Source: Chloroflexota bacterium (GTDB lineage: Bacteria > Chloroflexota > Dehalococcoidia > Lucifugimonadales > Lucifugimonadaceae). Taken from it: a stretch of DNA of 64,000 bases. Both the position numbers and the translations under genes were made by a program. This document shows positions 1,667 through 22,817 of the stretch, piece after piece (within the stretch, counting starts at the first letter, position 1; each line of letters starts with the position of its first letter). Where the stretch lies: NCBI GenBank assembly GCA_029262735.1, contig JAJCYY010000036.1:62001-126000 (forward strand). Reading direction: 5' to 3'. The notes beneath the pieces are model-generated. The model was not told the DNA's origin. It did not search any database and saw nothing but the letters and a program-made list of their open reading frames with translations.

Positions 1667-4600
1667 ATGCGCAACGGGTTCAGGTCGGCGAACAGGACGA
1701 AGCTCCTGGCTTTCGTCTTTGCAGCGCTGTTCGTGCTGGGCGCGTGTGCCGCGCCAAAGATTGTCACGGTCACACCCGAGACAACTGAAAACGTAGACGC
1801 ACTCGGCACTTCTTCTCCAGGCACACCGGGTCTTCCCGCTTCGATACCCGGAACGCCGTTGCCTCCAACCAAAACTGCCATTCCGGCCACTCCAACGCCC
1901 GTGCCACCGATCGCTTCATTTGAAGTAGACGCACGTTCTGGCACGGCGCCGTTTACAGTACGGTTCAAAGACGCCACCGAAGGTCCGGCACGTACCTTCG
2001 AATGGGACTTCGGCGACGGGATTACCAGCACAGAAGCCTCACCTGTCCATGAGTACACCAAAGCCGGGACTCACACAGTTCGCCTCACGGTTTTTGGTTC
2101 TAATGGCTCTGACAGCGAGACGAGGACAAGCTACATCACGGTGGATCCGGGTGTGGTGGTCGGATTAGCTATCAGACCCGAGCATCCAGTTGTTGAAGTT
2201 GATCAGACCATTGAGTTCGATGCGGTCGCAGTGGATCAGTTCGGTAATGGAGTCCCAGTGAACGCGGAATGGTCGCTTGATTCAACAGAGGGATCTCTGA
2301 CCGAAATCGGATTATTCACCGCCGGAACAACCGCCCAGACTCTCACTTCCGTCATCTCTGCGACGGCCATGACCGACTCCGGTGAAAGTAAAGCTTCAGC
2401 CTCCATAACCGTTGCTCCTGGCCCGCTGAAAACTGTCGTCATCAAGCGGCCAGCCGGATCTCTCGGAGTACAGGACAAACACCAGTTTTCGTACGAACCA
2501 GCTGATGAGTATGGCAATCCGATAACGGACGCTGCTGCGACCTGGACCCTGGCGACCGGCCTGGGCAGCATCACGCCAACTGGAGAATTGCAGACCGGCA
2601 CGGAGGCCGGACTGTTTAAAGACGGCATCCGCGTTCTCGTTGTTTCCGGGCAACAGCGTGCATCAGCGTCGGCAGACCTGGATATCAGGCCAGATGTGCT
2701 CGACTCGGTACTAGTTTCGCCTTCGATGGCCATAATCCATTGGCAACACGAACAGCAGTTCACAGCAATGGGAGCAGACCGGTTCGGAAACTCAATTGAA
2801 GGAATTGCCGTTACCTGGGAGGCGACTGGCGGAGAAATTGATGACACGGGCCTGTTTGTAGCCGGAACGCATGCAGGATCGTTCTCGGTTACAGCAACGG
2901 GATTTGATGGCGTCAGTAAGTCTGGCAGTACGAACGTACAGATTCCGCCACCTCAGTTTTCTTTAACGCAGACACTGGGTGACCCGGAGGCGCGATGGGC
3001 CGACGGACTCATGGTCTTCAACAAGGGTGTTGCGGTCGATTCCGACGGCAACATTTACGTGGCTGACAGACTTAATTTCAGAGTTCAGAAGTTCTCTCCG
3101 GAAGGCGATTTTCTAGCGAAGTGGGGACGCCAGGGTGATAACCCCGGAGAATTTCGCGCTCTGTGGGGCTTGGCCGTGGACGCGGATGGAAACGTCTACA
3201 CGACCGAGCAAAACAATAACCGGATTCAGAAATTCACTTCAGATGGCCAGTTCCTGATGATTATTGGGAGCGAAGGGGAAGGCAACGGCCAGCTACGCCG
3301 ACCTACGGGAGTTGCCGTGAGTCCGAACGGCGACGTATACGTCGCGGACACCATGAACGACCGCATCCAGAGATTCGGAGCCGACGGAACGTTCATCCAG
3401 GCGTGGGGAAGTGGAGGCAGCGGCGCCGGTCAGTTTTCTCAGCCGAACGGAATAGATATCGGGCCGTCCGGTGATGTTTACGTAGCTGATACGGGCAACA
3501 ATCGAATCAAAAAGTACACGAAAACCGGGAGTCTCATCACATTCTGGGGAAGCTCCGAAGACAGGGTATTGTTTCCAAGCGACGTGGCCGTGGACGCAGA
3601 TGAGAACGTCTACGTTGCAGATGGGGGATTCGTTACAAAATTCAGTTCGATCGGTGAGCCACTGAGACGGTGGGGTGGGGCGGGGGCTGCAGCCGGCCTG
3701 TTCTTCTGGCCGGAGAGTATTGCGGTCGGTCCGAGTGGAGACGTATATGTGTCGGAATCACTTAATCACCGGGTCCAACGGTTCTCGGCGGGTGGATCAT
3801 TCAAGCTGCAGATCGGAAGCGACGTCTCTGGCCCGGGGAGCTCGAGATCACCAATGGCTGTCGCTGTCGCCCCGGATGGCAACCTACTTGTCGCCGATTT
3901 CTGGGATGCAAAAATTCTCAGGTTCGACCCGAGCGGCACATTTTTATCCGAGTTCGGTGAGAAAGGATTCGAGTTCCAGCAGTTGGAAACTCCAACGAAC
4001 ATAGCAGTCGACTCTTTTGGCAACATTTATGTGGACGGCTCTCGGGGAGGCGATCTTGGCCAGGGCATCCTGAAGTTCGATATGTCCGGCGGCTTCATCA
4101 CCTCGTGGGGTCGAGAAGGGACAGGTCCGGGAGAGTTCCTGCAAATCGAAGGGATCGGGTTAGATCGACGCGGTCGCGTTTATGTTGTCGATCCGGAGAT
4201 CAATCGGATACAGGTATTCACGGCCAGTGGTGAATTCCTCCACGAATGGGGCTCAGCTGGAACGGGCGCGGGCTTCTTCGATCAGCCAAACGGCATTGCT
4301 ATCGATGCGGACGACAGCGTCTACGTTACAGATTGGGGGAATGGTCGGATACAGAAATTCACCACCGACGGCGATTTCATCGCAATGTGGGGTGAAATGG
4401 GAGATAGTCCCGGTCAATTCATCGGTCCGGCCGATATAGCCCTCGATCACCTGGGTAACGTCTATGTAGCCGATGCGAGCCTGGGCAGAGTGCAGATGTT
4501 TACGTCTGACGGCGAGTTTTTGACCGGTTGGGGGGATGAGGACGTGGAGCCCAGGAACCTGACGGCACCATGGGGAGTAGCCGTCGACTCAAGCGGACAC

Positions 4601-4675
4601 GTATACGTGGCTGACAATCGAGGCGGGGCAGTGCGTGTCTATACCTCCCCGGCGTTGACAGGGCCTGCCTCGTAG
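1667..4675 (+). CDS. Lipoprotein with PKD, Ig-like domains and NHL beta-propeller
   Basis: Exported surface lipoprotein of 1,002 residues. A signal peptide ends in a lipobox (LGAC, lipidated Cys27), then comes a Thr/Pro-rich stalk to about residue 80. A PKD domain (about 82-160, with WDFGDG and the conserved VHEYTKAGTHTVRLTV strand) is followed by three related Ig-like domains (about 165-430, each with AxDxFGN and GLFxAGT motifs). The last 560 residues are about a dozen NHL repeats of the type DxxGNVYVADxxNxRIQKF, forming one or two beta-propellers. The architecture fits a cell-surface binding or scaffolding protein; its ligand cannot be read from the sequence. ATG start, with GAGGG 8 bp upstream. 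Confidence 0.88.
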   Translation: MRNGFRSANRTKLLAFVFAALFVLGACAAPKIVTVTPETTENVDALGTSSPGTPGLPASIPGTPLPPTKTAIPATPTPVPPIASFEVDARSGTAPFTVRFKDATEGPARTFEWDFGDGITSTEASPVHEYTKAGTHTVRLTVFGSNGSDSETRTSYITVDPGVVVGLAIRPEHPVVEVDQTIEFDAVAVDQFGNGVPVNAEWSLDSTEGSLTEIGLFTAGTTAQTLTSVISATAMTDSGESKASASITVAPGPLKTVVIKRPAGSLGVQDKHQFSYEPADEYGNPITDAAATWTLATGLGSITPTGELQTGTEAGLFKDGIRVLVVSGQQRASASADLDIRPDVLDSVLVSPSMAIIHWQHEQQFTAMGADRFGNSIEGIAVTWEATGGEIDDTGLFVAGTHAGSFSVTATGFDGVSKSGSTNVQIPPPQFSLTQTLGDPEARWADGLMVFNKGVAVDSDGNIYVADRLNFRVQKFSPEGDFLAKWGRQGDNPGEFRALWGLAVDADGNVYTTEQNNNRIQKFTSDGQFLMIIGSEGEGNGQLRRPTGVAVSPNGDVYVADTMNDRIQRFGADGTFIQAWGSGGSGAGQFSQPNGIDIGPSGDVYVADTGNNRIKKYTKTGSLITFWGSSEDRVLFPSDVAVDADENVYVADGGFVTKFSSIGEPLRRWGGAGAAAGLFFWPESIAVGPSGDVYVSESLNHRVQRFSAGGSFKLQIGSDVSGPGSSRSPMAVAVAPDGNLLVADFWDAKILRFDPSGTFLSEFGEKGFEFQQLETPTNIAVDSFGNIYVDGSRGGDLGQGILKFDMSGGFITSWGREGTGPGEFLQIEGIGLDRRGRVYVVDPEINRIQVFTASGEFLHEWGSAGTGAGFFDQPNGIAIDADDSVYVTDWGNGRIQKFTTDGDFIAMWGEMGDSPGQFIGPADIALDHLGNVYVADASLGRVQMFTSDGEFLTGWGDEDVEPRNLTAPWGVAVDSSGHVYVADNRGGAVRVYTSPALTGPAS

Positions 4676-4752: not shown

Positions 4753-7700
4753 ATGCGTTACGGAGTCAGGCTGTCGAACAGGATGAAGATCCTGGTTTTC
4801 GTTCTTGCCACGCTGTTCGTATTGAGCGCGTGTGAAGGCGAAGGGATCGTAATCACTCGGCTCACATCGACACCCGACCCGAACGCCACCGCAACTCCGA
4901 CTGTCAATCCATCGGACACTCCTGTCCCTGGTGCAACAGCCACGGCGACAGCTGATCCGGCTGTGCCCGTTCCCACCGTTCCTCCGGGATCGACACCCAC
5001 ACCCGGATCCGGCCCAACAGCGACGCCAAGCGCCACCAGCACTCCTGTCCCCACGCCAACGCCGACACCTGTTCCGCCACTTGCATCGTTCGATGTTGAT
5101 TCTCGCTCCGGCGCGGCCCCATTCACGGTCCAGTTCACCGATACAACGGAAGGACCTGTCAGCTCGGTCGAGTGGGAATTCGGAGACGGGAGCACCAGCA
5201 CCGAAGCATCCCCTGTCCATGAGTACACGAAGGCCGGTGCCCACACCGTTCGCCTGTCCGTCTCGGGACCTAACGGATCAGACAACGAGGTGAGGACAAG
5301 CTACATCAACGTCAGCCCTGGTGCTGTCGTCGGCCTGTCAATCCGACCAGAGCACCCGAATGTCGCCGTCAGAGAGACGGTCAAGTTCGAGGCGCTTGCC
5401 GTGGATCAGTTTGGCAACGGCGTTCCCATCGAAGCCCAGTGGTCGCTGGATGGCGAAGAAGGGGCGCTTGATGACGGCGGTCTGTTTACCGCCGGGACGA
5501 AGGCGCTGACTTTAGGTGGTGCGATATCAGCCTCAACCCGGACCGACGCCGGTGCCAGCACGGCAAGCACATCGGTGACGATCACGACAGGACCGCTTAC
5601 GGCGGTGATACTGAGCGAGACGCAAAAGAGGCTGACCGTGCAGGACACTCACCAGTTCACTTTTTCCGCAACAGATGAGTTCGGTAATGCGGTCACAGAT
5701 GCGTTGGTATCGTGGTCCGTCGACTCAGACGCCGGTTCGATTACGGATTCCGGTCTGGTTCGCTCGGGCACAGAAGCCGGATTCTTCGCTGAAGCCGTTC
5801 GGTTGAGTGTTGTGTCCGGTCGCCAGAGTGTGTCTGCAAGAGCCGACCTGGTGCTCGAGCCTGATGTCCTGGAAACGGTCACGGTCAGCCCTTCGGGTAC
5901 CGAGGTCATCTGGCAGCATGACCGGAAGTTCACTGCTTCGGGAAGCGACAGATTTGGGAATGTCATTGGCGATCTCGCTTTTGCCTGGGATGCGACAGGC
6001 GGCGAGATAGATGAGTCCGGTCTGTTCACCGCCGGTACTCGAGTTGGCACGTACACCGTGACAGCAACCGGCCTCAGCGGCACCGCCAAGATTGGGCATT
6101 CAACGGTCAACATCCCGGCGCCGGAGTTCTTTTTTCAGGGTCAGATTGGAGGGCAGTTCGAAGACGGAGTGTTCCATGTCCCGGTGGGCATCGCGTTCGC
6201 TGGGGATGGCTCTATACATGTAGCTGATTCGAACCACCGGCGCATCCAGGCGTTCGCACCGGACGGACAGTTTCTAACAGCCTGGAACCAGCGTACCGAG
6301 GGTCCCCGACTCGAATTACCTTATGATGTGGCGTTTGACTCAAAGGGTAATCTGTATATCGCCGATTTAATTTTGAATAGCATTCTTAAATATTCGGCAG
6401 ATGGTCAATTTGTTCGACAGTGGGGAAGCTCGGGAAACGCCGATGGACAATTTAATAATCCATTTGACATCGCGTTCGACTCGATCGGCAACGTGTATGT
6501 TACTGACCGCGACAACGGTAGAATACAAAAATTCACATCCGATGGTGTTTTCCTCTCAAAATGGGGCAGTATTGGGAGCGACAATGGTCAATTTCATTGG
6601 CCAACAGCACTCGTGATCGATTCTAGCGACAACGTATACGTAGCCGATCGATTTAATCAGCGAATCCAGAAATTCACATCGGACGGCCTGTTTCTATCAA
6701 AATGGGGAAGCCCGGGCACAGGGAACGGGCAATTCGAAGAACCTGTGGGAGTTGCGATCGATTCCGGTGGGAACCTCTACGTAACCGACGGGACCAGCGA
6801 CCGAGTCCAGGTATTCACGTCTGACGGAGCATTCATCAGGAAATGGGGCACTTCAGGTACCGCTGATGGTCAGTTCAACCGACCGTTTGGGATAGCAATT
6901 GACGCCTCCGATAAGGTTTACATCGGGGACGTTAATAACAGCAGGATTCAGGTGTTTTCATCAATTGGCGCCTTCAATTCAAAGTGGGGTGATGAACTCG
7001 GTGTAGGACAACTGAAGAGGCCTGTGGGTGTTGCAACAGATAGTTTCGGCAATGTGTTCATAGTCGACGAATCTGAGAGGATTGTTCAAAAATACAACCC
7101 CGACTACCAATACGTGTTGAAATGGGGTCGGTTTGGGACGGGGGTGGGCCAGTTTGAGAGACCAAACGATATTGCAGTTGATTCCTCTGGCAGCGTGTAT
7201 GTCGCTGATCGAACAGATAATAGCGTTCAAAAATTCGATAGTACCGGATCTTTTATTAGCGTTTGGACAGGGTTCAACGAACCAACCGCAATCGCGACCG
7301 ATTCAAAACTCAATGTATATGTGGTAGGTCGTGGAAACAATCGGATCCGGAAATTCACTGGCAGTGGAAATATAATTACTGAATGGAGTTCAAGTGGTCC
7401 CAGCGGAGTGGCAGTTGACTCGGAAGACAACGTATACATTGTAGAAGAAGGAAATAGCCGGATTCAGAAATTTACATCTGGCGGGCAATTCATCTCTGCT
7501 TGGGGCCAAGCAGGTGTTAGCCAGGGCGAATTCTCGAGTCCCGGTGGCATCGCGATTGATTCTTTTGACAACGTCTATGTGCTGGACACTGGAAACGGTC
7601 GCATACAGATGTTGACCAGCGGCGGAACCTTTATCACTGAATGGGGTAGTTTTGGCACCGGACTTGGTGAGTTTGAGAAACCTACCGGAATCGCGATCAC

Positions 7701-7782
7701 GCCGCATGGAATGGTTCTGGTCGCAGATCGCGAAAGTGGCAGAGTCCAGGTCTTCCGATCGCCTGCGCTGACTCCGTCCTAG
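4753..7782 (+). CDS. Second PKD/Ig-like/NHL lipoprotein, tandem paralogue
   Basis: Lipoprotein of 1,009 residues, collinear with its upstream neighbour. It has a signal peptide with lipobox LSAC (Cys27), a longer Thr/Pro stalk, a PKD domain (about 110-188), three Ig-like domains (to about 455) and about 13 NHL repeats to the C-terminus. The N-terminal domains match the paralogue closely and the propeller has diverged more. The propeller-coding DNA (about 6,340-7,500) is visibly more AT-rich than its surroundings, with codons such as TTA and AAA, which suggests this half was replaced or acquired separately. Role as for the first copy: surface binding, ligand unknown. Confidence 0.88.
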   Translation: MRYGVRLSNRMKILVFVLATLFVLSACEGEGIVITRLTSTPDPNATATPTVNPSDTPVPGATATATADPAVPVPTVPPGSTPTPGSGPTATPSATSTPVPTPTPTPVPPLASFDVDSRSGAAPFTVQFTDTTEGPVSSVEWEFGDGSTSTEASPVHEYTKAGAHTVRLSVSGPNGSDNEVRTSYINVSPGAVVGLSIRPEHPNVAVRETVKFEALAVDQFGNGVPIEAQWSLDGEEGALDDGGLFTAGTKALTLGGAISASTRTDAGASTASTSVTITTGPLTAVILSETQKRLTVQDTHQFTFSATDEFGNAVTDALVSWSVDSDAGSITDSGLVRSGTEAGFFAEAVRLSVVSGRQSVSARADLVLEPDVLETVTVSPSGTEVIWQHDRKFTASGSDRFGNVIGDLAFAWDATGGEIDESGLFTAGTRVGTYTVTATGLSGTAKIGHSTVNIPAPEFFFQGQIGGQFEDGVFHVPVGIAFAGDGSIHVADSNHRRIQAFAPDGQFLTAWNQRTEGPRLELPYDVAFDSKGNLYIADLILNSILKYSADGQFVRQWGSSGNADGQFNNPFDIAFDSIGNVYVTDRDNGRIQKFTSDGVFLSKWGSIGSDNGQFHWPTALVIDSSDNVYVADRFNQRIQKFTSDGLFLSKWGSPGTGNGQFEEPVGVAIDSGGNLYVTDGTSDRVQVFTSDGAFIRKWGTSGTADGQFNRPFGIAIDASDKVYIGDVNNSRIQVFSSIGAFNSKWGDELGVGQLKRPVGVATDSFGNVFIVDESERIVQKYNPDYQYVLKWGRFGTGVGQFERPNDIAVDSSGSVYVADRTDNSVQKFDSTGSFISVWTGFNEPTAIATDSKLNVYVVGRGNNRIRKFTGSGNIITEWSSSGPSGVAVDSEDNVYIVEEGNSRIQKFTSGGQFISAWGQAGVSQGEFSSPGGIAIDSFDNVYVLDTGNGRIQMLTSGGTFITEWGSFGTGLGEFEKPTGIAITPHGMVLVADRESGRVQVFRSPALTPS

Positions 7783-10806: not shown

Positions 10807-11580
10807 CTGAACAGAGACACTCTTACTGCCGGAATTATCTGGGCTGTTCTGACCATCATTGGCGAACTCTTGATGTTCGGATGGGACATCTTCCCGGTGG
10901 CGGCATCAGAGCAGGCCGATGTAGTCGATGAAGCGTTCTTCCTTCTAACTCTCCTTGCCATTCCAATATTCACCTTTGTCGTAACCGTCATTGGATACAC
11001 GATGTGGCGGTTCCGGGCGCAAAGCGGCGAAGTTGCAGACGGTCCCCCCGTTCGGACACACAGCAAATGGGTGCCGTTCTGGCTGTTCTGGACTACGGCT
11101 CTGACGATCGCAGTGATCATTCACCCCGGTTACACCGGGCTTCTTGAGCTACGCGAGACCAACGACCACGATCCCGATCTTGTGGTCAATGTGACGGGTC
11201 TTCAGTGGGTCTGGCTCTTCGAGTACCCGGACGACGATGTTTCCACCGTCAACGAACTGGTGTTGCCGGTCGACAAAGTCGTCAGGTTCAACGTCACTGC
11301 CCCTGACGATGATGTGGTTCATTCGTTCTGGGTGCCGGCGTTCAGAACGAAGATTGACGCTGTTCCGGGACTCATCACGCGCATCGATGTGACACCAAAC
11401 GCAATCGGTGAGTTCAATGATGACGTGAACTTCCGAGTGCAGTGCGCCGAACTTTGCGGCCTTAACCACGGCACCATGTTTGCGCGTGTGAAGGTGGTTG
11501 AAGAGGCCGAATTCGATCAGTGGATCGCGGAAAGATCGGGACGTGCTGCGATTCCGAGTTCAGGGAGTAACCCCTCTTGA
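10807..11580 (+). CDS. coxB: Cytochrome c oxidase subunit II (CuA subunit)
   Basis: Accepts electrons from cytochrome c through the binuclear CuA centre. About 257 residues if translation starts at the CTG at 10807. The alternative TTG at 10870 has no ribosome-binding site and would cut into the first hydrophobic segment (TAGIIWAVLTIIGELLMFGW). Two further membrane helices follow (FFLLTLLAIPIF..., WVPFWLFWTTALTIAVI), then the periplasmic cupredoxin domain. All CuA ligands are visible: the histidine in VVHSFWVPAF and the set in CAELCGLNHGTM. The stop overlaps the TTG start of subunit I by 3 bp, indicating translational coupling. Confidence 0.92.
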   Translation: MNRDTLTAGIIWAVLTIIGELLMFGWDIFPVAASEQADVVDEAFFLLTLLAIPIFTFVVTVIGYTMWRFRAQSGEVADGPPVRTHSKWVPFWLFWTTALTIAVIIHPGYTGLLELRETNDHDPDLVVNVTGLQWVWLFEYPDDDVSTVNELVLPVDKVVRFNVTAPDDDVVHSFWVPAFRTKIDAVPGLITRIDVTPNAIGEFNDDVNFRVQCAELCGLNHGTMFARVKVVEEAEFDQWIAERSGRAAIPSSGSNPS

Positions 11581-13409
11581 TTAAGCTAGTTCCCATTGGC
11601 CGAGGCTTGCTGTTCGCATCCATCGGACTGGCTATAGGAACGCTCTTTGCATGGCTCCTGGTTGAGATAACCGGTCGCGAATCGTTCGCCGACCCGGTGA
11701 TAACCCTCGGTTATCTGTTTGCACTGATCGGTTGGATAATGGGCGTTGGCCTGTGGAAGACCTGGGGTAGGGAGTGGTTCGGGCTGTCGACCAGTACAGG
11801 ACCAACCACCGGTTGGGGACGCTACTTCTCGTTCAGCATGGATCACAAGGTAGTAGGCGTCCAGTACCTGGTCACGATGGTTGTGCTGTTCCTGCTGGGT
11901 GGGATCGGCGCGTTGTTGCTACGGGTTGAGCTGTCTCAATACGGACAGAACATCCTCGGACCGGATGAGTACAACACCGCGATGAGTCTGCACGGAATCA
12001 TCATGATCGCGGTTGCCGTGGCTACGGTGATGGGTGGTTTCGCAAACTACATTCTGCCGTTGATGATTGGCGCGGAGGACGTCGCGTTTCCGCGCTTGAA
12101 CGCACTGAGTTTCTGGATCGTTCCACCGGTCGCCATCCTCCTGTTACTCACGCCTGTTTTCGGTGGCTTCGATACTGGCTGGACCGCATACCCACCACTT
12201 GCGACTCAGAGCGATACGGGAACGCTGCTTTTCTTGTTAGCGTTCTTCACGTTTGGCATTTCATCGATCCTGGGCGGTATCAACTTCATCGCAACCATCG
12301 TGACGATGCGCGCTCCGGGGATGACCTGGAGCAGGTTACCGATATTTGCCTGGTCTGTTTTGGCGGCATCACTGATATCTCTGACCGCTACCCAGTGGGT
12401 GGCATATGCGCTGCTGATGGTGGTGTTTGAACGAGTATTCGGGATGGTGTTCTTCTCACCACCGGGTGGAAACGCTCTGCTGTACGAGCACGTCTTCTGG
12501 TTCTATTCACACCCGGCCGTTTACATCATGATTCTGCCTGCTTTCGGGCTGGAGTTGGAGATCATCAGTCACTTCAGCCGGAAGCCGGTGTTCGCATATA
12601 AGTGGGTCGTGCGCGCTCTATTCCTGATTGTCGGACTTAGCTTCGTCGTGTGGGCACACCATCTGTTCACAAGTGGAATGGGCGAGGATCTGCACGGCCC
12701 GTTCATGATCCTAACTGAGTTGATCTCGATACCGACCGGAATTGTGTTCCTGTCTGCCCTGGGAACTATGTGGCGTGGCAGGATGCGATTGAAAACCCCG
12801 GTTTTATTCGCCCTGGCGATGGTCTTCAACTTCGCCATTGGTGGACTGACCGGGATCTTCCTAGCAGACGTGGCAACTGACGTGAACCTGCAGGATACGT
12901 ACTTCGTCGTTGCTCACTTCCACTACACGATCATGGGTGGCGAGATCTTCGCCATATTCGCTGCGCTGTACTACTGGTTCCCTAAGATCACGGGGCGTAT
13001 GTACAACGAAACACTGGGGAAGATCCACGCCATTGGAATGTTCTTATTCTTCAACATCACGTTCCTGACGATGTTCATGCCCGGGGTAGCCGGTATGAAC
13101 CGGCGAGTGGCGGACTATCCTCCTGAGTTTGGCGACATAAATATGGTCGTATCCATCGCCGCGTTCATTCTGGGCGCTTCGTTCCTGCCGTTCACTTACA
13201 ACATGATCAAGTCATGGATATCTGGTCCGCAGGCGGCCGCAAACCCGTGGGAAGCGAAATCGCTCGAGTGGCAAACATCTTCGCCTCCCCCGCTGGAGAA
13301 CTTCGATGGTGAGCCGGTTATCGTCGGAGACCCCTACGGGTATGGCGACCCTGATGCCGTCCACGTCCGTTTTGAGCACCATGGCGCGACGCCCGTTGAA
13401 GCCGACTAA
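11577..13409 (+). CDS. coxA: Cytochrome c oxidase subunit I, A2-type
   Basis: Catalytic subunit reducing oxygen to water while pumping protons; 610 residues in the membrane. An N-terminal extension with two hydrophobic segments (about 1-65) precedes the usual twelve-helix core. Haem ligands are in MSLHGIIM and VVAHFHYTIMGG; CuB histidines are in FWFYSHPAVY and WAHHLFTSGM. The motif YSHPAVY replaces HPEVY, so the D-channel glutamate is absent and Tyr-Ser takes its place, the signature of the A2 class. Start is TTG, overlapping the end of subunit II. Part of the operon II-I-IV-III. Confidence 0.95.
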   Translation: MIKLVPIGRGLLFASIGLAIGTLFAWLLVEITGRESFADPVITLGYLFALIGWIMGVGLWKTWGREWFGLSTSTGPTTGWGRYFSFSMDHKVVGVQYLVTMVVLFLLGGIGALLLRVELSQYGQNILGPDEYNTAMSLHGIIMIAVAVATVMGGFANYILPLMIGAEDVAFPRLNALSFWIVPPVAILLLLTPVFGGFDTGWTAYPPLATQSDTGTLLFLLAFFTFGISSILGGINFIATIVTMRAPGMTWSRLPIFAWSVLAASLISLTATQWVAYALLMVVFERVFGMVFFSPPGGNALLYEHVFWFYSHPAVYIMILPAFGLELEIISHFSRKPVFAYKWVVRALFLIVGLSFVVWAHHLFTSGMGEDLHGPFMILTELISIPTGIVFLSALGTMWRGRMRLKTPVLFALAMVFNFAIGGLTGIFLADVATDVNLQDTYFVVAHFHYTIMGGEIFAIFAALYYWFPKITGRMYNETLGKIHAIGMFLFFNITFLTMFMPGVAGMNRRVADYPPEFGDINMVVSIAAFILGASFLPFTYNMIKSWISGPQAAANPWEAKSLEWQTSSPPPLENFDGEPVIVGDPYGYGDPDAVHVRFEHHGATPVEAD

Positions 13410-13423
13410 AGAGAGTCAACAGG

Positions 13424-13705
13424 ATGATTGAATCCCAACAAGAAACCCACGGCGGGGATGAGCAGCCCACTCAGCGGAGAGGCATCCAGGTAATCGTTGT
13501 CCTGGCGGTCTTTACGGTTATCGAGTTCATCATCGCCATAGCGATAGATGGCGGCAATCTGCTCGCAACGCTGCTCGGGGTGGTCGCCGTGATCAAAGCG
13601 GTTCTGATAATTCAGTACTTCATGCATTTCCACCAGTTGTGGGAGAGCATTCGCGAAGTTTGGGACGCAGTTGTCTATGGTGAGGAGGCAGAGTCGGATG
13701 ACTAG
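13424..13705 (+). CDS. Cytochrome c oxidase subunit IV-like small membrane protein
   Basis: Protein of 93 residues. A soluble, acidic N-terminus (1-20) is followed by two membrane helices (VIVVLAVFTVIEFIIAIAI and ATLLGVVAVIKAVLIIQYFM) and a short acidic tail. This matches the prokaryotic subunit IV (COX4_pro) family, which stabilises the CuB site during assembly. It lies 14 bp after subunit I and its end overlaps the start of subunit III by 8 bp, which supports the assignment. Confidence 0.85.
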   Translation: MIESQQETHGGDEQPTQRRGIQVIVVLAVFTVIEFIIAIAIDGGNLLATLLGVVAVIKAVLIIQYFMHFHQLWESIREVWDAVVYGEEAESDD

Positions 13706-14267
13706 CGAGGTCCATGACACCGTCGAGAAAGTGCAGGCTCGTCTCAAGCTGAACAGGCTGGGTCTTTGGCTATTCCTGGTCTCTGATGCTTCATTCTTCC
13801 TGGCCTTGCTCTCAAGCCGATACTTCGTAGAAGGGCTCCACACGCCTGAGGAAGTTGACCAGGCTCTTGGCCTGGCGCTGACGATACTGTTGCTTGCCAG
13901 CAGCCTGACTGCTTACAGGGCTGAGACGGCTGCGGCGAACGGCAACATGCCACGCTACAGGTGGAACATGTTCGCCACGATGTTGATGGGAATTGTCTTC
14001 ATCGGTGGCGTCGGCTACGAGTGGTTCGAGGCGTTCAAACACTTTCCACCCTCGACCGGATACGGCACTGTGCTGTTTACGCTCACCGGAGTGCACGCCA
14101 CTCACGTGCTTAGCGGCGTGATCCTGCTTGCACTCGTATACCGCAAAGGCCAGTCAAAGCCCTACGCTCCGGACAGCTACTGGGGAGTGGAAGGCGCGGT
14201 CAAGTACTGGCACTTTGTAGACGTCGCCTGGGTCTTCATCTACCCGACGCTGTACCTCGTGAGTTGA
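13698..14267 (+). CDS. coxC: Cytochrome c oxidase subunit III
   Basis: Integral membrane subunit of 189 residues with five predicted helices. I place the start at ATG 13698, which has GAGGAGG 10 bp upstream; the frame is open further upstream but only over the previous gene. Family motifs are LGLWLFLVSDASFFLALLSS in the first helix, the GVHATHVLSG helix and VKYWHFVDVAWVFIYPTLYL at the end, all typical of subunit III. It closes the oxidase operon. Confidence 0.93.
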   Translation: MTSEVHDTVEKVQARLKLNRLGLWLFLVSDASFFLALLSSRYFVEGLHTPEEVDQALGLALTILLLASSLTAYRAETAAANGNMPRYRWNMFATMLMGIVFIGGVGYEWFEAFKHFPPSTGYGTVLFTLTGVHATHVLSGVILLALVYRKGQSKPYAPDSYWGVEGAVKYWHFVDVAWVFIYPTLYLVS

Positions 14268-14793: not shown

Positions 14794-15249
14794 CAGGTCG
14801 CCTGTCGACATCGGCAAGCCGCTGACCTTCTGCCGGAACGTTGACTGGAAGCGCGCCTATTCTGGTCAGATCCAGGTGGGTCGGAATTTTTCATTCATAC
14901 GAACTCCAACGGACACTCATAGCTGCCATATGTACGCGCCTGTTTATGCAGGATTTGTTGAGCGCATCGAGCGGCCATACGACACGAAGTCTAGTTTCGA
15001 AGAATCTAAAGATGGCACCGGTGCTGTGGTGCATGCCGTCATGTGAATAGTGAGACTGTAAACTCAGAAAATATTAACGAATGGCTCACGACAGATGCCG
15101 AAATTCGTTCTGAGACCATGTTAGTATCCTGTCCTCAATCATGATCGGTAATTGTTCGAAAACTGTAAGGTCCGCGCCACATTCGTTAAGAAAATTTGCG
15201 CAAGATCCATTCGAATCGAGTCCATAACTCAACTCCTAGCATTGACGCC
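14794..15249. other. Gene-free leader of the giant surface protein
   Basis: About 450 bp with no convincing gene. The second half (15,050-15,200) is AT-rich and probably holds the promoter of the large gene; I could not assign -35/-10 boxes with confidence. Confidence 0.35.
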
Positions 15250-18200
15250 ATGGTAAATATGTCGCGCTGGTGGCTAGTTGCGGTCGTCGCGGTTGGCGCT
15301 TTTACACTCGCACTGGCTCTCACCTCGTCCACATGGACAAATGTTTTGGCCGCTGGTTCAACCGGGGGCACTGATGGCACAGGTGGCACCGGTGGAACGG
15401 ATGGCACAGGTGGTACCGGCGGAACGGATGGCACAGGTGGAACTGGCGGAACGGGCGGCACTGGTGGTACCGGCGGAACGGATGGCACAGGCGGAACTGG
15501 CGGAACTGGCGGAACCGGCGGAACGGGCGGCACCGGTGGTACAGGAGGCACCATACCCCCGGTCGAGAAACCGACACTAGAGATAATCGATGAGCTGGGT
15601 CTGCCAACTCACCTGATCAGCCTGCAGGCAATTGGATCTACCGAAACATTAAGCATAAGCGTAGATTCATTGCCGATAGTCGGCGCCGACACTATCCAGG
15701 TACTCATTCAGCACAACCCGCTGGTCACGTCTATCAGCAACACCAGTTGCCAGGGTGTGTTTGATGACGCTTTCAGCCCATTAGACGCTGTTCGCATCGA
15801 TTCTGAGTCGGCGTCCGGATTCGTCTGTTTCAGCAGCTCTCATATAGCGACCGGCACCGGAGCGCTGATCGAGTTCGATGTTGAGCGGATTGGATTCGGG
15901 TCTGACATGATCGAGCTGTCGGGTTCAGGGCCGTATGCAACCACCTTTTTTGCAACCGGCGATTCAGTGGGGCCAGTTCTCCCTGCCCCGTTCGAGGTAT
16001 TGAACCTGCCGGCTCCGGCTCCTACATCGACGCCTACTCCCACACCATCACCGACTCCTACGCCATCGACAGGTGGCGGAGGTGGAGGTGGGGGTGGAGG
16101 CGCGCCTCCACCCGCTCCTGCTCCAGCACCTGCTGCGATCCCACCGGGTGCGCCGCTCGATATCGAGGTGGAGGCTGGCGATCTGCTGGCAATCATCCGC
16201 TGGGAACCACCAAACATTATCGGCAGTTCTGCAATAACTTCTTACACTGCCGGCATTTTCGGAGGCACAGCGGCCCAGATCCTGCCGTCGACAGCACGCA
16301 CAGCCGTGTTCACAGGTTTGCCGAACGGGGTTCCCGTCCAGCTTCGTGTGTGGGCCAGCAACTCGGCTGGCAACGGACCTCCTTCGAGCCCGGTCTCAGT
16401 GACTCCGTTTGGTCTGCCCGGGCCGCCGCTATCGGTCACCGCCCAGCTAATGCCGGATAGTGAGTCGATACTGGTCAGCTGGCAGGAACCGGAATCGGAC
16501 AACGGCGCGGAGATCCAGTCGTACACGGTCAGCTCGGCAGGTGCGCCGTTCGAGCCTGTCGAGGTCGACGCTGGAACGTTTTCGGTAGTTCTCGGAAACC
16601 TGGCGCCGGGTAGCTACTCTGCCATGGTTGCGGCGGCGAATACGGCCGGAAGCGGAGAGCTTTCGTCGCCGTCGGATCCTATTCCGGTCGCTGGCCTGCC
16701 CACTGTCGGTGCCCCCTCAGAACCGCCTGGTGGTGAGTCCGGTAACACGACCGCTCCGTCTATCGATCTACCTGCAAACGACCGAGAAACAATCGCCGGG
16801 GCAGTCGGCGGCTCTCCTTCTGAATCCGTGGGTTCGGCACAACTGCGAAAGGAATCAGGCGGCTTAGTCCTGAGCCTTCCTGTCGAGTTCGATAGTGATT
16901 CAGGTCCGGTCATTGGAGACCTCGAACTTTCGACGTCCGATCTCAAGATGGACTTCTCAAGCGGGACCGGGACGTTCGAGCTTGCCATATCGGACGACAT
17001 GGTGCTCCGTGGCATAGGAGAGCTGCGGAACAGGGACCGTCATTTGGCGGTTGAGGTTAAGGAACTCTCGCTTTTCTACTCGCCTGCCCTCGCCGGTACA
17101 CAGGTGCCGGTTGGAAGAAGTATCCAGTTCGACGTAGACATAGTCGGCTTGCCAGGCAGTCTCTCGACAACAGTCGTCGATTCTCTCGAAGAGCTTAATC
17201 TTCCGGCGAGTTCTCAGTTCTCGAACCCCATTGAATCGGCAGGAAGCGAGTTTGGCGACGGCTTTCGAGAGATCGCCCTGCTGGTGCACGTAGAGACCAT
17301 GGATACCGAGGACGGAGTGTTTGGTTCGAACTCCGTGTCCATCACGGTAGAGACAAGCTGGCTAGAGAAGGAGTTGGCGCTCGGACGCCTGATTGGAATA
17401 CTCAAGATCAGTGACGATGGACTTGTCTACTCAGCTGAGCCAGCATGTTCTGAGGTTTCGCCTGGTTTCTCGAGCTGTACGTCGAAGTTCGAAGGTGCGG
17501 CCGGTGGCTTTTCATCATTCGCGCTACTGTCTTTCGAACGAATAGTTGCGCCGACGCCTGAAGCGATCACAAGATCGACTCCGTTCCCAACCGCAACCAT
17601 CGTACCTACTGCGACACAGACAGCAACGCCCACGGCCACACCGATAGCTGCGCTCTCGAATGCTCCCGAGATACCGCCTTCAGCAGAGACTCCGACTCCG
17701 TTGCCCCTGCCGGTATCGACACCTGTGCTCCCCGGTATCAGTGGAGACAGTGGAGGAGGCAGCATCATTGTAGTAGTGGTGGTGGTTATCGTTGGAACAG
17801 CGGGAACAGCTGCCGGTTTAGCTGTGTGGCGCAGACGCAAGACTGGTGTGGTAGTTGGAACGCTACTGCTTATGGCGTTCAGTGCCCAGGCAATGATCCC
17901 GGGCGACACATCCGCACACACAGTCCGGTCGTTTGATCGGTTGGCGAGCGAGTCATTCGATGCTCAACATACAGCGTCGATAGTTTCTGGACCTCGACTT
18001 AGCACCTCACCACGAGGTAAACCAGCAGGAGATGTTCCTGTCAACAGGCTCGATACGTTCGAAAATCCACTGTATGTAGCTGGCACGGAGGTGACAGGTA
18101 ATCAGGTCTTGATCCACGCAGCTACAGATAATCCTGAGGCGCTAGCTGCAGAACTGGAACTTCTGGGGCTTACAGGCGCAACAGTCGGGGAACGCTCTGT

Positions 18201-21200
18201 TTCAGGCAGAATCCCCCTCACCTCGTATGGCCAGTTGCAGTCGGTTCGCAGCGCAAAACACGTGACCATCGAACAGCCGTTTACGAGATCGGGTTCGGTA
18301 GTGTCTCAAGGTGATGCCGCCCACCGCGTTGATTTTGCACGGTCGTTCTACGGCGTCGACGGCACAGGTGTGACCGTCGGCGTGATCTCGGATAGCTGGG
18401 ACTGTCTGAACCAGTACCAGACCGATGTGACGGCCGGAGAGCTACCCCCGAACGTGATCGTGCTCGAAGAGATCTCATCATGTAGCGGTGCGATCGATGA
18501 GGGACGTGCGATGGCGCAGATTATCCATGACCTGGCGCCGGGTGCGGACCTTATATTCCACACGGGCTTCAATGGCTCGGTAAACATGGCTGATGGCATC
18601 CGTGAGCTGGCCGCCGCTGGCGCCGACATCATCGTGGACGACATCGGATACTTCAATCAACCATTCTTTCAAGATGGCATCATAGGTGAGGCTGTCAATT
18701 CCGTCACAGGCATGGGAGTTGCATATTTCTCATCGGCAGGGAATCTGGCATCTGATTCCTACGAAGCTGATTTCGACCCGAGAGATTTCTTGGCGCCGGA
18801 TGCGTTTCCAAGTGTCATTGGAGCTCCGAGGTTTCTCGGTGGGTATCCGCACTGGTTCACTACTACACAAAGCAACAAGGACGATAATTGGCGGCGAGGT
18901 TTCACGCTGAATCCCGGAGACGAACTAACCCTGTATTTTCAATGGGATGACGCCTTCTTGTCGGCCAATGATAAAGGCGCCGCCAGCGAAATGGATGTTT
19001 ATATTTTCGATTGGACCGGATCTGTCGTACTCGCCGGCTCGACCTCCCTTTCGATGGGAAATGACCCGTTCGAGGCGCTTAGTGTGATCTATCTCCCACC
19101 AGCGGGAGAGACCAGGGATTTCCAAGGTGGAATCGCGTTTGTGCATGAAGCTGGGCCTATCCCTTCAAGGATCAAGTACATCTTCACCACCACAAATTCT
19201 GGTGGCAGCGGCCTTAAAGCCGGCCGAGACGGCGATCGTGCCGGAACTATTGTGGGACATCCGAATTCCGAAGGCGCTATCGCTGTCGGCGCAATTGAAC
19301 ACCATGATGTACTCAGGATTGACAAGGAGTCGCTTCCACATCGGCACGACGTTGAGGTTTTCAGTTCACGCGGCGGAGTACCCGTGCTTCGGGATGACCA
19401 GGGAACTCCAATACCCGAGATTGTCAGGCTTCGGCCAGATATCGTTGTATCTGACGGCGTTAGCACTTCAACTAATCTGAATCCGTTCTATGGCACATCC
19501 GCCGCAGCTCCTCACGCTGCCGCGATTGCAGCCTTGATGCTCGACGACAATCCGCATCTTTCGCCTGGACAAATTCGAGCAGCCTTCACGTCTAGTGCAG
19601 TTGACATTGAGGGCACAGGCTTTGATTTCGAGTCTGGTTTCGGATCGCTCGATGCACCGAACGCACTATCACGGACCGCACTTCGCCGTGAGTCCAAAAT
19701 TCTGGATTACGATGCAAATGATCTGGAGGTCGGATCTTCTGGGCTCATCTATATGAGCGTAACCGCAACAGGGGGAGTGCCCGAAAATAGACTCATTGCT
19801 GTCGACCCATTCACGCTAGAAGAAACGTGGTCCTACACTACAACCTTCGTTCCTGATCGTATTGCCCTCGCCAGCGACGAGTCAAAACTCTACGCGAGCA
19901 AAGTTGGAGGATCGTCTATCTCGCGGATTGACGTTGACCAGGTGATAGTTGACCTTCAATTGACCGGCATCCAGCCGATGAATATGGCGGTAATGCCCAG
20001 TGATCCAGACATCCTCGCGGTGACTCACCGAGGAATGACGTCACTGTCCGTTAATGGCACGTGGGTTGATAGTGATAGTCATCCAATCCATAGCAGTGAC
20101 AATTTTGCAACGGATTTGAGATTTGCTCCTAATGGTGAGTTGTTCGTGGGTTACAAAGGAATAATTTCATACACAGTGTTCAATTCATCACTAATCCGTA
20201 CTGAAGGCTTCAAAGTATTGGGTGCGGCACGAATAATTCAATTCGATCTAGATAACGGGTTAATTTTTGGCAGCAGTGGTGACATCCTTGATATCGATAC
20301 TCGTCGAGGGATAACAAATTTTTGGACTACGGCGCCATTAGACTCATCGGTTATTTCAAGTGATGATGGCTCGCGCGTGCACTATGCAGCCAGGACGCAA
20401 TCTCCGCGGGACGAGTATGAGCGATCATCGCTAATTACGTATGACGTGCCAACCGGTAATTTAATCGGGTCGTTCTTACTACCTAAGTACTATAATATTG
20501 TCGATGATATTGGGCTGTGGGGCAAACACGGGGTGACTTTCCGAGTTCCGGGAGGTGGGGTTTTCATTGGCAGTACCGAGCTATTTGGTGAGTCGATTGA
20601 AATGCTTGGTAAAGTGACCGGCTTTGGACTCGATCCTGCAATCTCAGCGGAAAAGCATCTAATCAAAATCGAAGCATCTTTAGTTTATCGAGATTCGGAA
20701 ACAGCAATGGTTGGTCAGGTGGACGCAGATGGTAATATCCTTTTTAGAACTCTAAATGGAGTATTCGATATTGAAGCTTCCGCCCCGGGATATCTTCGAA
20801 TAAAAGCGAAATCGGTGCGCATCGGCAATACGCCGGTGAGGATGGAATCTGTTCAACTGGTACCCGGTGATTCGAACAATGACCAGATTGTTGACACAGC
20901 GGATGCACTCATAATCGGCGACTCTTTCGGAGTGACTACCGGCAACAGCATGAATGTTGCTGGATACGTTGTTGATTTCGATGGTGACGGTTTTGCTACG
21001 GGCAGAGACGCCTCGTTATTAGTGGCCGGTTTTGGCGCGAGCGGGCCCCAACCGTGGGAATATGAAGAAATTCCACCTCCTCCTACGGCTACACCCGCGC
21101 CTTCGCCTACGGTCGAACCTATTCCCTCACCAACTCCCACACCAACTCCTGGGCCCATTCCAACGCCAACTCCTACGCCAACTCCGACGGCCGGTCCCTC

Positions 21201-22485
21201 TCCAACGCCAAGTCCCGCGCCAACCGCCACTCCAACAGCAACGCCGATCTCAACGCCTCAACCCTGTAGCGCGGGCACTGACACTCAATTCATTGCTGAT
21301 ACGACCGGTCTCAGATTTCCCGATGTGGGAACGGCTGGTGGGACCTTCACTGCGTACGTCTGTAAGTTCGATTTCGAAACACAGGAACCGCCTTCCGAGT
21401 TTGTCGGATTTGACGGTCGAATAGGAAGCGTCGGCACTTCGTTCATCACGCCCGGCGGCAATGCCCGCATCACTCACCCGCGGCTCGACGTGAGTCCGAT
21501 TGGAGTCAAATCCCTTACGCGCTCCGATGTACTGGGCAAAGCGGTCACCGCTCCTGCGTTGGAGGCTGCCTTTACGGGTGCGGACCAGCCGATACGGATC
21601 GAGTTCGGATCGGGTACAAATGCGGTGGGGATGGACATCATTAGCCCTTCGGTTGACGGCGCGTACATTGTTGCTGTGGATTCCGGTGGAGATAGGAACG
21701 TCTACTTCATTCAGACCGGAAACGCCACCAGGTTCTTCGGCATCACGAACACCACTGGCATCAGGGAGATCTATATCGGCACGGCATCCAGGACGGGCAC
21801 GGCAAGGATAGCGATTGACAACCTCACGTATAGCGCAGGCTCCTCCGAATGGACCGTCCCTCAGCCACCGGCGACCAACTGTTCCAGCGGCGAAGTTGCC
21901 GATGTGGTATTAGGCACGGAAGGATTGCCCCACACGTCGTTCGATGCCTCAGGACCGGGAGATATATCGGTATTTCTTTGCTTGAGTGAATTTCAAGCCT
22001 CGACCACGACAGATTCTGTCATCACGTTCGACGGCCCATTCGGGAATCTTGGTCCGGAACACATTGAGAACGGTAATGTGCGATTCACTAGCCCGTTACT
22101 AGACCGAGATCCAATCACGTTTATGGATCTGTTGAGGTCTGACGCCTCTGGCACAGCAGCTACTCCGCCGACACTACGCTCGGCGGGTCCGTCTACGCAT
22201 GATTTTCCACTGGTCATTGAGTTTTCTCCCGGGACGGGCGCAGCCGGACTCCATATCATTGATGGTGCAGCCGCAGTCAATCCACTGTTTGTAATAGCTG
22301 AAGATTTCTCCGGCGCGGCGATGCTTATCTTCATCAACGGTGAACCGAGTTCCGGGGCGTTTATCGGCTTCGATTCACCAAACGGCATCAGCAAGATCTC
22401 CGCTGGGCACTCACCCGTGATCTGCTGCACCGGAACGATGAACATCGACAACGTGTACTACGAATCCGGTTTACCGTTTTCCTAG
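15250..22485 (+). CDS. Giant exported protein: cohesin, FN3, membrane segment, subtilase, dockerin
   Basis: About 2,411 residues from the ATG at 15250; a TTG at 15196 would add 18 polar residues before the signal peptide. Order: signal peptide (1-36), Gly-Gly-Thr repeat (36-101), cohesin-like domain (109-245), Pro/Thr linker, two fibronectin III domains (298-480), an uncharacterised beta-rich region to about 790, and a membrane segment (838-860) followed by RRRK. A second signal-like segment (VVVGTLLLMAFSAQA) comes next, then a subtilase (S8) domain about 1035-1480 with Asp1048, oxyanion Asn1165 and Ser1417 in GTSAAAPH. A divergent propeller, a dockerin with two calcium loops (1874-1915), a Pro/Thr linker and two copies of a ~200-residue beta domain follow. 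The usual catalytic His is replaced by Glu1084 (DEGRAM). It looks like two secreted proteins joined in frame. Confidence 0.85.
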   Translation: MVNMSRWWLVAVVAVGAFTLALALTSSTWTNVLAAGSTGGTDGTGGTGGTDGTGGTGGTDGTGGTGGTGGTGGTGGTDGTGGTGGTGGTGGTGGTGGTGGTIPPVEKPTLEIIDELGLPTHLISLQAIGSTETLSISVDSLPIVGADTIQVLIQHNPLVTSISNTSCQGVFDDAFSPLDAVRIDSESASGFVCFSSSHIATGTGALIEFDVERIGFGSDMIELSGSGPYATTFFATGDSVGPVLPAPFEVLNLPAPAPTSTPTPTPSPTPTPSTGGGGGGGGGGAPPPAPAPAPAAIPPGAPLDIEVEAGDLLAIIRWEPPNIIGSSAITSYTAGIFGGTAAQILPSTARTAVFTGLPNGVPVQLRVWASNSAGNGPPSSPVSVTPFGLPGPPLSVTAQLMPDSESILVSWQEPESDNGAEIQSYTVSSAGAPFEPVEVDAGTFSVVLGNLAPGSYSAMVAAANTAGSGELSSPSDPIPVAGLPTVGAPSEPPGGESGNTTAPSIDLPANDRETIAGAVGGSPSESVGSAQLRKESGGLVLSLPVEFDSDSGPVIGDLELSTSDLKMDFSSGTGTFELAISDDMVLRGIGELRNRDRHLAVEVKELSLFYSPALAGTQVPVGRSIQFDVDIVGLPGSLSTTVVDSLEELNLPASSQFSNPIESAGSEFGDGFREIALLVHVETMDTEDGVFGSNSVSITVETSWLEKELALGRLIGILKISDDGLVYSAEPACSEVSPGFSSCTSKFEGAAGGFSSFALLSFERIVAPTPEAITRSTPFPTATIVPTATQTATPTATPIAALSNAPEIPPSAETPTPLPLPVSTPVLPGISGDSGGGSIIVVVVVVIVGTAGTAAGLAVWRRRKTGVVVGTLLLMAFSAQAMIPGDTSAHTVRSFDRLASESFDAQHTASIVSGPRLSTSPRGKPAGDVPVNRLDTFENPLYVAGTEVTGNQVLIHAATDNPEALAAELELLGLTGATVGERSVSGRIPLTSYGQLQSVRSAKHVTIEQPFTRSGSVVSQGDAAHRVDFARSFYGVDGTGVTVGVISDSWDCLNQYQTDVTAGELPPNVIVLEEISSCSGAIDEGRAMAQIIHDLAPGADLIFHTGFNGSVNMADGIRELAAAGADIIVDDIGYFNQPFFQDGIIGEAVNSVTGMGVAYFSSAGNLASDSYEADFDPRDFLAPDAFPSVIGAPRFLGGYPHWFTTTQSNKDDNWRRGFTLNPGDELTLYFQWDDAFLSANDKGAASEMDVYIFDWTGSVVLAGSTSLSMGNDPFEALSVIYLPPAGETRDFQGGIAFVHEAGPIPSRIKYIFTTTNSGGSGLKAGRDGDRAGTIVGHPNSEGAIAVGAIEHHDVLRIDKESLPHRHDVEVFSSRGGVPVLRDDQGTPIPEIVRLRPDIVVSDGVSTSTNLNPFYGTSAAAPHAAAIAALMLDDNPHLSPGQIRAAFTSSAVDIEGTGFDFESGFGSLDAPNALSRTALRRESKILDYDANDLEVGSSGLIYMSVTATGGVPENRLIAVDPFTLEETWSYTTTFVPDRIALASDESKLYASKVGGSSISRIDVDQVIVDLQLTGIQPMNMAVMPSDPDILAVTHRGMTSLSVNGTWVDSDSHPIHSSDNFATDLRFAPNGELFVGYKGIISYTVFNSSLIRTEGFKVLGAARIIQFDLDNGLIFGSSGDILDIDTRRGITNFWTTAPLDSSVISSDDGSRVHYAARTQSPRDEYERSSLITYDVPTGNLIGSFLLPKYYNIVDDIGLWGKHGVTFRVPGGGVFIGSTELFGESIEMLGKVTGFGLDPAISAEKHLIKIEASLVYRDSETAMVGQVDADGNILFRTLNGVFDIEASAPGYLRIKAKSVRIGNTPVRMESVQLVPGDSNNDQIVDTADALIIGDSFGVTTGNSMNVAGYVVDFDGDGFATGRDASLLVAGFGASGPQPWEYEEIPPPPTATPAPSPTVEPIPSPTPTPTPGPIPTPTPTPTPTAGPSPTPSPAPTATPTATPISTPQPCSAGTDTQFIADTTGLRFPDVGTAGGTFTAYVCKFDFETQEPPSEFVGFDGRIGSVGTSFITPGGNARITHPRLDVSPIGVKSLTRSDVLGKAVTAPALEAAFTGADQPIRIEFGSGTNAVGMDIISPSVDGAYIVAVDSGGDRNVYFIQTGNATRFFGITNTTGIREIYIGTASRTGTARIAIDNLTYSAGSSEWTVPQPPATNCSSGEVADVVLGTEGLPHTSFDASGPGDISVFLCLSEFQASTTTDSVITFDGPFGNLGPEHIENGNVRFTSPLLDRDPITFMDLLRSDASGTAATPPTLRSAGPSTHDFPLVIEFSPGTGAAGLHIIDGAAAVNPLFVIAEDFSGAAMLIFINGEPSSGAFIGFDSPNGISKISAGHSPVICCTGTMNIDNVYYESGLPFS
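15355..15552 (+). repeat. In-gene Gly-Gly-Thr coding repeat
   Basis: Twenty-two tandem 9-bp units encoding Gly-Gly-Thr or Gly-Thr-Asp variants, with codons varying between GGC/GGT and ACC/ACT/ACG. It forms a flexible, Gly-rich spacer directly after the signal peptide. Such tracts expand and contract by slippage. Confidence 0.85.
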
Positions 22486-22544
22486 TGACGCAGGCTGCTT
22501 TCATCCCTCGTGATTGGTCGAACACTCGGATGCAAATGGTGTAG

Positions 22545-22817
22545 ATCGAATTCTCCGAGGGGACGGGTGCCGTAGGGCTGCATGTCATCGAGCCACCGAT
22601 CTCCTCCGTGGATGACACGAGACCGCTATTCATCATCATCGAGGATTTCGCGGGCGCCGCAAGGATCCTGTTCTTCAACGGGCCGCCAAGTGATACCCAG
22701 CCGAATGCAGGCGCGTTTGTGGGCTTCGATTCTCGAGGCGGGATCAGCAAGATCGTCGTCGGGTATGCGCTAAGCCCTGGCACACGCAGGCTGTTCGGAC
22801 TCTGTCAGAACAATTGA
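22545..22817 (+). pseudogene. Orphan copy of the giant protein's C-terminal domain
   Basis: Starting 60 bp after the stop of the giant protein and in a different frame, 90 codons encode IEFSEGTGAVGLHVIE..., PLFIIIEDFAGAARILFFNG and FVGFDSRGGISKI. This aligns with the last 110 residues of the giant protein (IEFSPGTGAAGLHIID, LFVIAEDFSGAAMLIFINGE, IGFDSPNGISKI). There is a stop directly upstream (22542-22544) and no start, so this is the tail of a third, lost repeat of the C-terminal beta domain. Confidence 0.75.

Follow-up and report, generated by a model that had tools for sequence, protein, structure and literature searches.

A single gene in the window, the 64,000-nucleotide stretch of contig JAJCYY010000036.1 from a Chloroflexota bacterium that was analysed here, joins a cell-surface anchor with a cohesin to an S8-like protease with a dockerin. 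The gene is one open reading frame, with a predicted cohesin fold in the first half, homology to X-dockerins in the second, a conserved pair of hydrophobic segments between them, and a second half that is collinear with stand-alone proteases. The product is probably a secreted polyprotein that signal peptidase would cut behind the second hydrophobic segment (segment 2), leaving two products that could rejoin, an anchor with the cohesin and a protease with the dockerin.

Layout of the gene and its domains

The features of the gene are as follows.

15196..22485, + strand: whole open reading frame of 2429 codons plus stop, without interruption; likely start at ATG 15250 or ATG 15259
15250..15351, + strand: N-terminal signal peptide MVNMSRWWLVAVVAVGAFTLALALTSSTWTNVLA, from hydropathy, with a predicted cleavage site
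15352..15561, + strand: Gly/Thr/Asp-rich repeat spacer (TGGTDGTGG...), from sequence
15571..16008, + strand: cohesin domain, residues 126-271, from the predicted fold; a Cys pair is invariant across the family
16141..16674, + strand: two fibronectin type III (FN3) domains (PF00041, E 1.5e-13)
16708..17547, + strand: family-specific beta domain "nbd", residues 505-784, from homologues and predicted structure
17548..17736, + strand: Pro/Thr-rich linker, from sequence
17737..17829, + strand: membrane helix 1, a stop-transfer anchor by hydropathy
17830..17841, + strand: RRRK, predicted cytoplasmic loop, from sequence
17842..17892, + strand: segment 2, putative internal signal peptide TGVVVGTLLLMAFSAQA, with a predicted signal peptidase cut after A899 (17892/17893)
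17893..18282, + strand: pro-region, from an alignment in which it is collinear with the pro-region of stand-alone proteases
18211..19695, + strand: S8-like protease domain, from PF00082, alignment and HMM limits
20665..20850, + strand: X-module-like beta domain ahead of the dockerin, from a profile match to X-dockerins
20860..21063, + strand: dockerin with two calcium-loop repeats, DSNNDQIVDTAD and DFDGDGFATGRD, from PF00404 and the X-dockerin profile
21265..22482, + strand: two C-terminal beta domains that are alike, from sequence

Residues are counted from ORF position 15196, so that residue n of the initial annotation is n + 18 here; the product from ATG 15250 has 2411 amino acids. Its first half runs from the signal peptide and the Gly/Thr repeat through the cohesin, two FN3 domains and the family-specific beta domain to the Pro linker and helix 1. 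After helix 1 come RRRK, hydrophobic segment 2, the pro-region, the S8-like protease, the X-module with the dockerin and the tail domains. Just downstream of the gene (22539-22769) lies what is left of an additional copy of the C-terminal beta domain; it shares 59% identity with residues 2339-2406 and is broken by a TAG. Two neighbouring proteins with PKD and NHL repeats, each of about 1000 amino acids, are encoded at 1667-4675 and 4753-7782, upstream of genes for cytochrome oxidase subunits (10870-14267).

The window cohesin gave no match to Pfam PF00963 at E values up to 1 in protein scans or 0.1 in the six-frame genome search, and no match in a sequence search of the PDB. Its AlphaFold model, built from 11 homologues, reached a pLDDT of 87.8, and the first 46 PDB rows returned by Foldseek were all cohesins or cohesin-containing (best E 2.4e-8, TM 0.69). 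The cohesin fold is supported because the model matches solved cohesins, despite the lack of a sequence match; it is the predicted fold, and not the sequence, that places the domain among the cohesins. The beta domain "nbd" of the anchor is likewise beta-rich in a confident model (pLDDT 82), for which a fold search among solved structures returned nothing significant. It was found in 17 of the 250 genomes searched in the order, in one genome of the class sample that lies outside this order and in none further among the 400 of the phylum sample, and is thus almost confined to one order.

The dockerin scored 27.6 bits against PF00404 in the six-frame genome search (cut-off 22.9) and 19.8 bits, slightly under the same cut-off, in the whole-protein scan. 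Cellulosomal scaffoldins have X-dockerins that match a family profile of the dockerin and the preceding beta domain (4u3s, E 5.7e-13), and DSNNDQIVDTAD and DFDGDGFATGRD would be its two calcium loops. The protease domain matches PF00082 (E 6e-13, 49.1 bits), and its sequence matches in the PDB are subtilases. The Ser is kept in GTSAAAPH (19492-19515), Glu replaces His in DEGRAM (18496-18513) and the Asp is offset by one position in the alignment, so that the canonical Asp-His-Ser triad is absent.

The modules named in the initial annotation are borne out by these results: a cohesin at its residues 109-245 (here 126-271), for which the support comes from AlphaFold and Foldseek while the Pfam and PDB sequence searches were empty; a dockerin at its residues 1870-1920 (here 1889-1956), supported by both PF00404 and the X-dockerin profile; an S8 protease domain; and the presence of cohesin and dockerin on one chain. 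The succession of Pro linker, helix, RRRK and second signal-like segment that it described is also present (17737-17901), and hydropathy and sequence agree on a membrane anchor inside the chain.

The membrane joint and its proposed processing

The order of beta domain, helix, short loop, helix and S8 domain (followed by the dockerin), with no stop at the joint, was found at 11 loci in nine species of two genera. These are the window gene, L039, L038 and L040 to L043 from the window's genus, and L055, L056, L090 and L092 from another genus of the family, drawn from nine genomes of as many species. The stretch from cohesin to dockerin is complete in six of them (the window gene, L039, L038, L040, L056 and L092), and contig ends cut L041-L043 and L090. 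A single in-frame TAG (L055:3398-3400) follows the cohesin in one otherwise continuous homologue.

Residues 848-907 of the window protein comprise, in order, helix 1, RRRK, TGVVVGTLLLMAFSAQA and MIPGDTSA. Helix 1 has a median hydropathy of 2.86, which is anchor-like; segment 2, at 2.31 compared with 2.30 for N-terminal signal peptides, is hydrophobic enough to be retained in the membrane. Helix 1 (out to in), the four basic residues and segment 2 (in to out) are predicted to form a hairpin. As there are two adjacent hydrophobic segments with a basic loop, both halves are predicted from hydropathy and charge to lie outside, whether the chain is cleaved or not. The initial annotation had overlooked segment 2 as a membrane crosser, and its claim that an uncut chain would have one half on either side of the membrane is contradicted by this predicted topology.

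The comparison with stand-alone proteases of relatives points to segment 2 as a signal peptide. The protease half aligns with these proteins end to end from segment 2 onward, their signal peptide and pro-region aligning with segment 2 and residues 908-1030, and the distance from the hydrophobic segment to the S8 domain is 123 residues in the window protein versus 122 and 124 in L046 and L047. Segment 2 is an internal hydrophobic segment with a positive n-region, homologous to the stand-alone signal peptide and collinear with it in position and spacing, while the similarity of the segment itself is weak. In the alignment of the hairpins, one column past segment 2 holds Ala in 10 of the 11 sequences, and the -3 residue is small or aliphatic; the window gene has SAQA instead. 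A rule for AxA-type motifs was positive in 68% of signal peptides versus 65% of ordinary internal helices of these genomes, and because this rule does not discriminate, the proposed cleavage relies on the alignment column just described and on the hydropathy and collinearity of segment 2. For the signal peptidase motif, a trained matrix had learned lipoboxes (lipoprotein signals) and was dropped. In the reading favoured here, signal peptidase would cleave after segment 2.

According to the proposed mechanism, the N-terminal signal peptide would export the first half (cohesin, FN3 and beta domain) until helix 1 halts the transfer and becomes its C-terminal anchor, with RRRK remaining in the cytoplasm. 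Segment 2 would act as an internal signal peptide that restarts export, now of a complete pre-pro-protease with its X-dockerin. Signal peptidase I would cut behind segment 2 and release a membrane-anchored cohesin protein and a dockerin protease in equal amounts, and the dockerin may then bind the cohesin of its own or a neighbouring anchor, which would hold the protease at the cell surface. Here we infer the topology, the cleavage, the pairing of cohesin with dockerin and the activity of the protease.

Alternatively, segment 2 may stay in place as a second permanent helix, so that a single chain would have both extracellular halves fixed at one point of the membrane, and the dockerin would close a ring onto the cohesin of its own chain or link neighbouring chains. 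The hydropathy of segment 2 would allow this, the motif counts above give no positive proof of cutting, and an uncut hairpin, which would also leave both halves outside, accounts for the conservation of the hairpin with its short basic loop. However, a permanent tie between the halves would make the cohesin-dockerin pair dispensable, and an uncut helix does not sit well with the alignment of segment 2 to the N-terminal signal peptides of stand-alone proteases. In L048 (genome G060; partial, its start cut by the contig), an S8 domain and the anchor domain apparently share one chain, in reversed order and with a single helix, and neither cohesin nor dockerin was seen in the available sequence. 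We regard the uncleaved hairpin as unlikely, though still a serious alternative. The L048 homologue is interrupted by a single in-frame TAG (L048:5585-5587).

Proposed pairing of the modules and origin of the gene

A dockerin in the same ORF or in an adjacent gene accompanies 12 of the 13 evaluable cohesin-bearing anchors, whereas none of the seven cohesin-less anchors has one (Fisher p 1e-4, a value that overstates the case because the counts share ancestry). Taken with L048 above and L044 below, these counts suggest a role for the cohesin-dockerin pair where the enzyme and its anchor end up as two molecules. Self-assembly into chains, as raised in the initial annotation, is possible; one cohesin on the anchor and one dockerin on the protease would agree no less well with a protease that attaches itself again to an anchor.

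An extended form of such assembly would be a surface fibre whose members polymerise head to tail from membrane anchors, the window gene giving an anchor and one unit. It finds some support in the window's genome, which holds 10 cohesins and seven X-dockerins of these families, with a cohesin also present in six of the seven dockerin ORFs, and in the adjacent-gene systems L045, L051, L052, L089 and L093, where a gene for a secreted protein with both cohesin and dockerin lies upstream of a cohesin-bearing anchor gene. Yet the dockerin half of the window protein, once cut, has no cohesin and would cap the chain, and the cohesins and dockerins of one cellulosomal chain usually differ in specificity. 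A fibre is improbable in our judgement; it is compatible with the polyprotein reading and the two are not exclusive.

Both halves of the gene were found as separate genes in the search of relatives, as stand-alone anchors and as stand-alone pre-pro-proteases. The stand-alone anchors stop right after helix 1 and have a short, usually basic tail. The nearest of them to the window anchor, its sister with 100/100 support, is L044, which has neither cohesin nor protease; the last part of this gene (L044:1926-4163, + strand) encodes a few hydrophobic residues, perhaps what remains of segment 2. Across the hairpin, dN/dS is 0.15 (L056/L092) and 0.13 (L055/L090), with differences mostly at third codon positions, and on these ratios the joint is under purifying selection. 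In-frame ATG, GTG and TTG codons near the joint were considered as internal translation starts and rejected, being unconserved and without a convincing Shine-Dalgarno sequence. A stop or frameshift at the joint, which the initial annotation named as grounds for refutation, is absent, and all 11 homologous loci are uninterrupted there. The layout is real and selected, and not an assembly mistake, because nine related species have this joint in common. The earlier reading as a fusion of two genes thus stands in so far as both components exist separately in relatives, and fails as a one-off event or assembly error. A recent accidental fusion, frameshift or misassembly is highly improbable: stand-alone versions of both halves would make it conceivable, but nine species of two genera share the joint, which is under purifying selection and contains neither a stop or frameshift nor a conserved internal start.

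In the trees built from the beta domain and from the S8 domain, the fused form requires three changes, at least two of them forced by well-supported branches. The S8 domains of the second genus cluster apart (99/98 support) and show a canonical Asp-His-Ser pattern, which implies that the fusion took place twice or that the protease domain was exchanged, the trees being unrooted. The anchor-hairpin-protease polyprotein has apparently been built at least twice. Within the window's genus, L039 resembles the window protease in keeping Ser and having Glu at the His position, and by sequence the activity of both is uncertain. The paralogues L038 (L038:7090-11895, - strand), L040 (L040:8203-12885, - strand) and L041-L043 have Arg at the His position, and in the alignment their GSxAAAAH motif is rewritten and holds Pro, Ser or Thr, so that the Ser is mostly lost; they also lack the pro-region found in the window protein. 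Their S8 domains look like pseudoproteases, and they still keep the hairpin, as well as cohesin and dockerin where these are readable. A search of the genome collection with the S8 domain as query also found one protease, without fusion, on a 3.9 kb contig labelled Schleiferiaceae. The full account is a way of displaying proteins on the bacterial surface: anchor and cargo would be made as one polyprotein, cut apart by signal peptidase and rejoined non-covalently by a matched cohesin and dockerin. It would have arisen independently two or more times, each time with another S8 subfamily, and have been kept in a lineage whose protease lost the catalytic residues. This account is offered tentatively, at somewhat less than even confidence.

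Comparison with known systems

Cohesin and dockerin share one chain in cellulosomal scaffoldins of Acetivibrio cellulolyticus and in ScaF, ScaH and ScaI of Ruminococcus flavefaciens, and S8 peptidase modules are listed in the scaffoldin figure for A. cellulolyticus (PMC3413522; PMC5301203). The window protein resembles these in that a single chain carries the two modules, and also in its FN3 domains and in the X-module with the dockerin. It differs in the internal membrane hairpin, none being described for scaffoldins, of which those of A. cellulolyticus are anchored by SLH modules, and in its cohesin, which has diverged beyond the reach of Pfam and contains the invariant Cys pair. The window protein has one cohesin, and the Pfam scan showed neither a CBM nor a glycoside hydrolase in it, so that its composition is not that of a cellulosome scaffoldin with a CBM and an array of cohesins for cellulases.

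Surface proteases borne by dockerins are represented by the S8 double-dockerin protein 0689 of C. thermocellum and by a peptidase-dockerin of R. flavefaciens that binds ScaE (PMC12484212, PMC5301203). As in these systems, a protease would be brought to the surface by dockerin-cohesin binding, which in the window protein is presumed; there protease and anchor are separate proteins, whereas here one ORF encodes both. In Bradyrhizobium, signal peptidase divides the FbcH precursor into cytochromes b and c1, and this cleavage is proven. The window protein would likewise be a polyprotein of a bacterium that is separated where an internal signal peptide lies, but it carries surface modules where FbcH yields subunits of a respiratory complex. 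The cohesin-dockerin proteins of Archaeoglobus fulgidus provide a non-cellulosomal cohesin, and its solved structure (2xdh) was one of those that the window cohesin matched in the fold search; we know of no protease or membrane-hairpin architecture in them.

Our literature search returned no description of an anchor-hairpin-protease combined with cohesin and dockerin, and nothing useful on dockerins of Dehalococcoidia. If the polyprotein reading is true, the gene would represent non-cellulosomal cohesin-dockerin docking, in which both modules in one gene set anchor and enzyme at 1:1 and reunite them after cleavage, and it would be one more bacterial polyprotein that is processed through an internal signal peptide. 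One gene with one cohesin and one dockerin is also a ready test system for the question of why many non-cellulolytic microbes carry these modules. That cohesin, dockerin and S8 domains share chains is already known from cellulosomes; what is new is the proposed anchor-hairpin-protease polyprotein.
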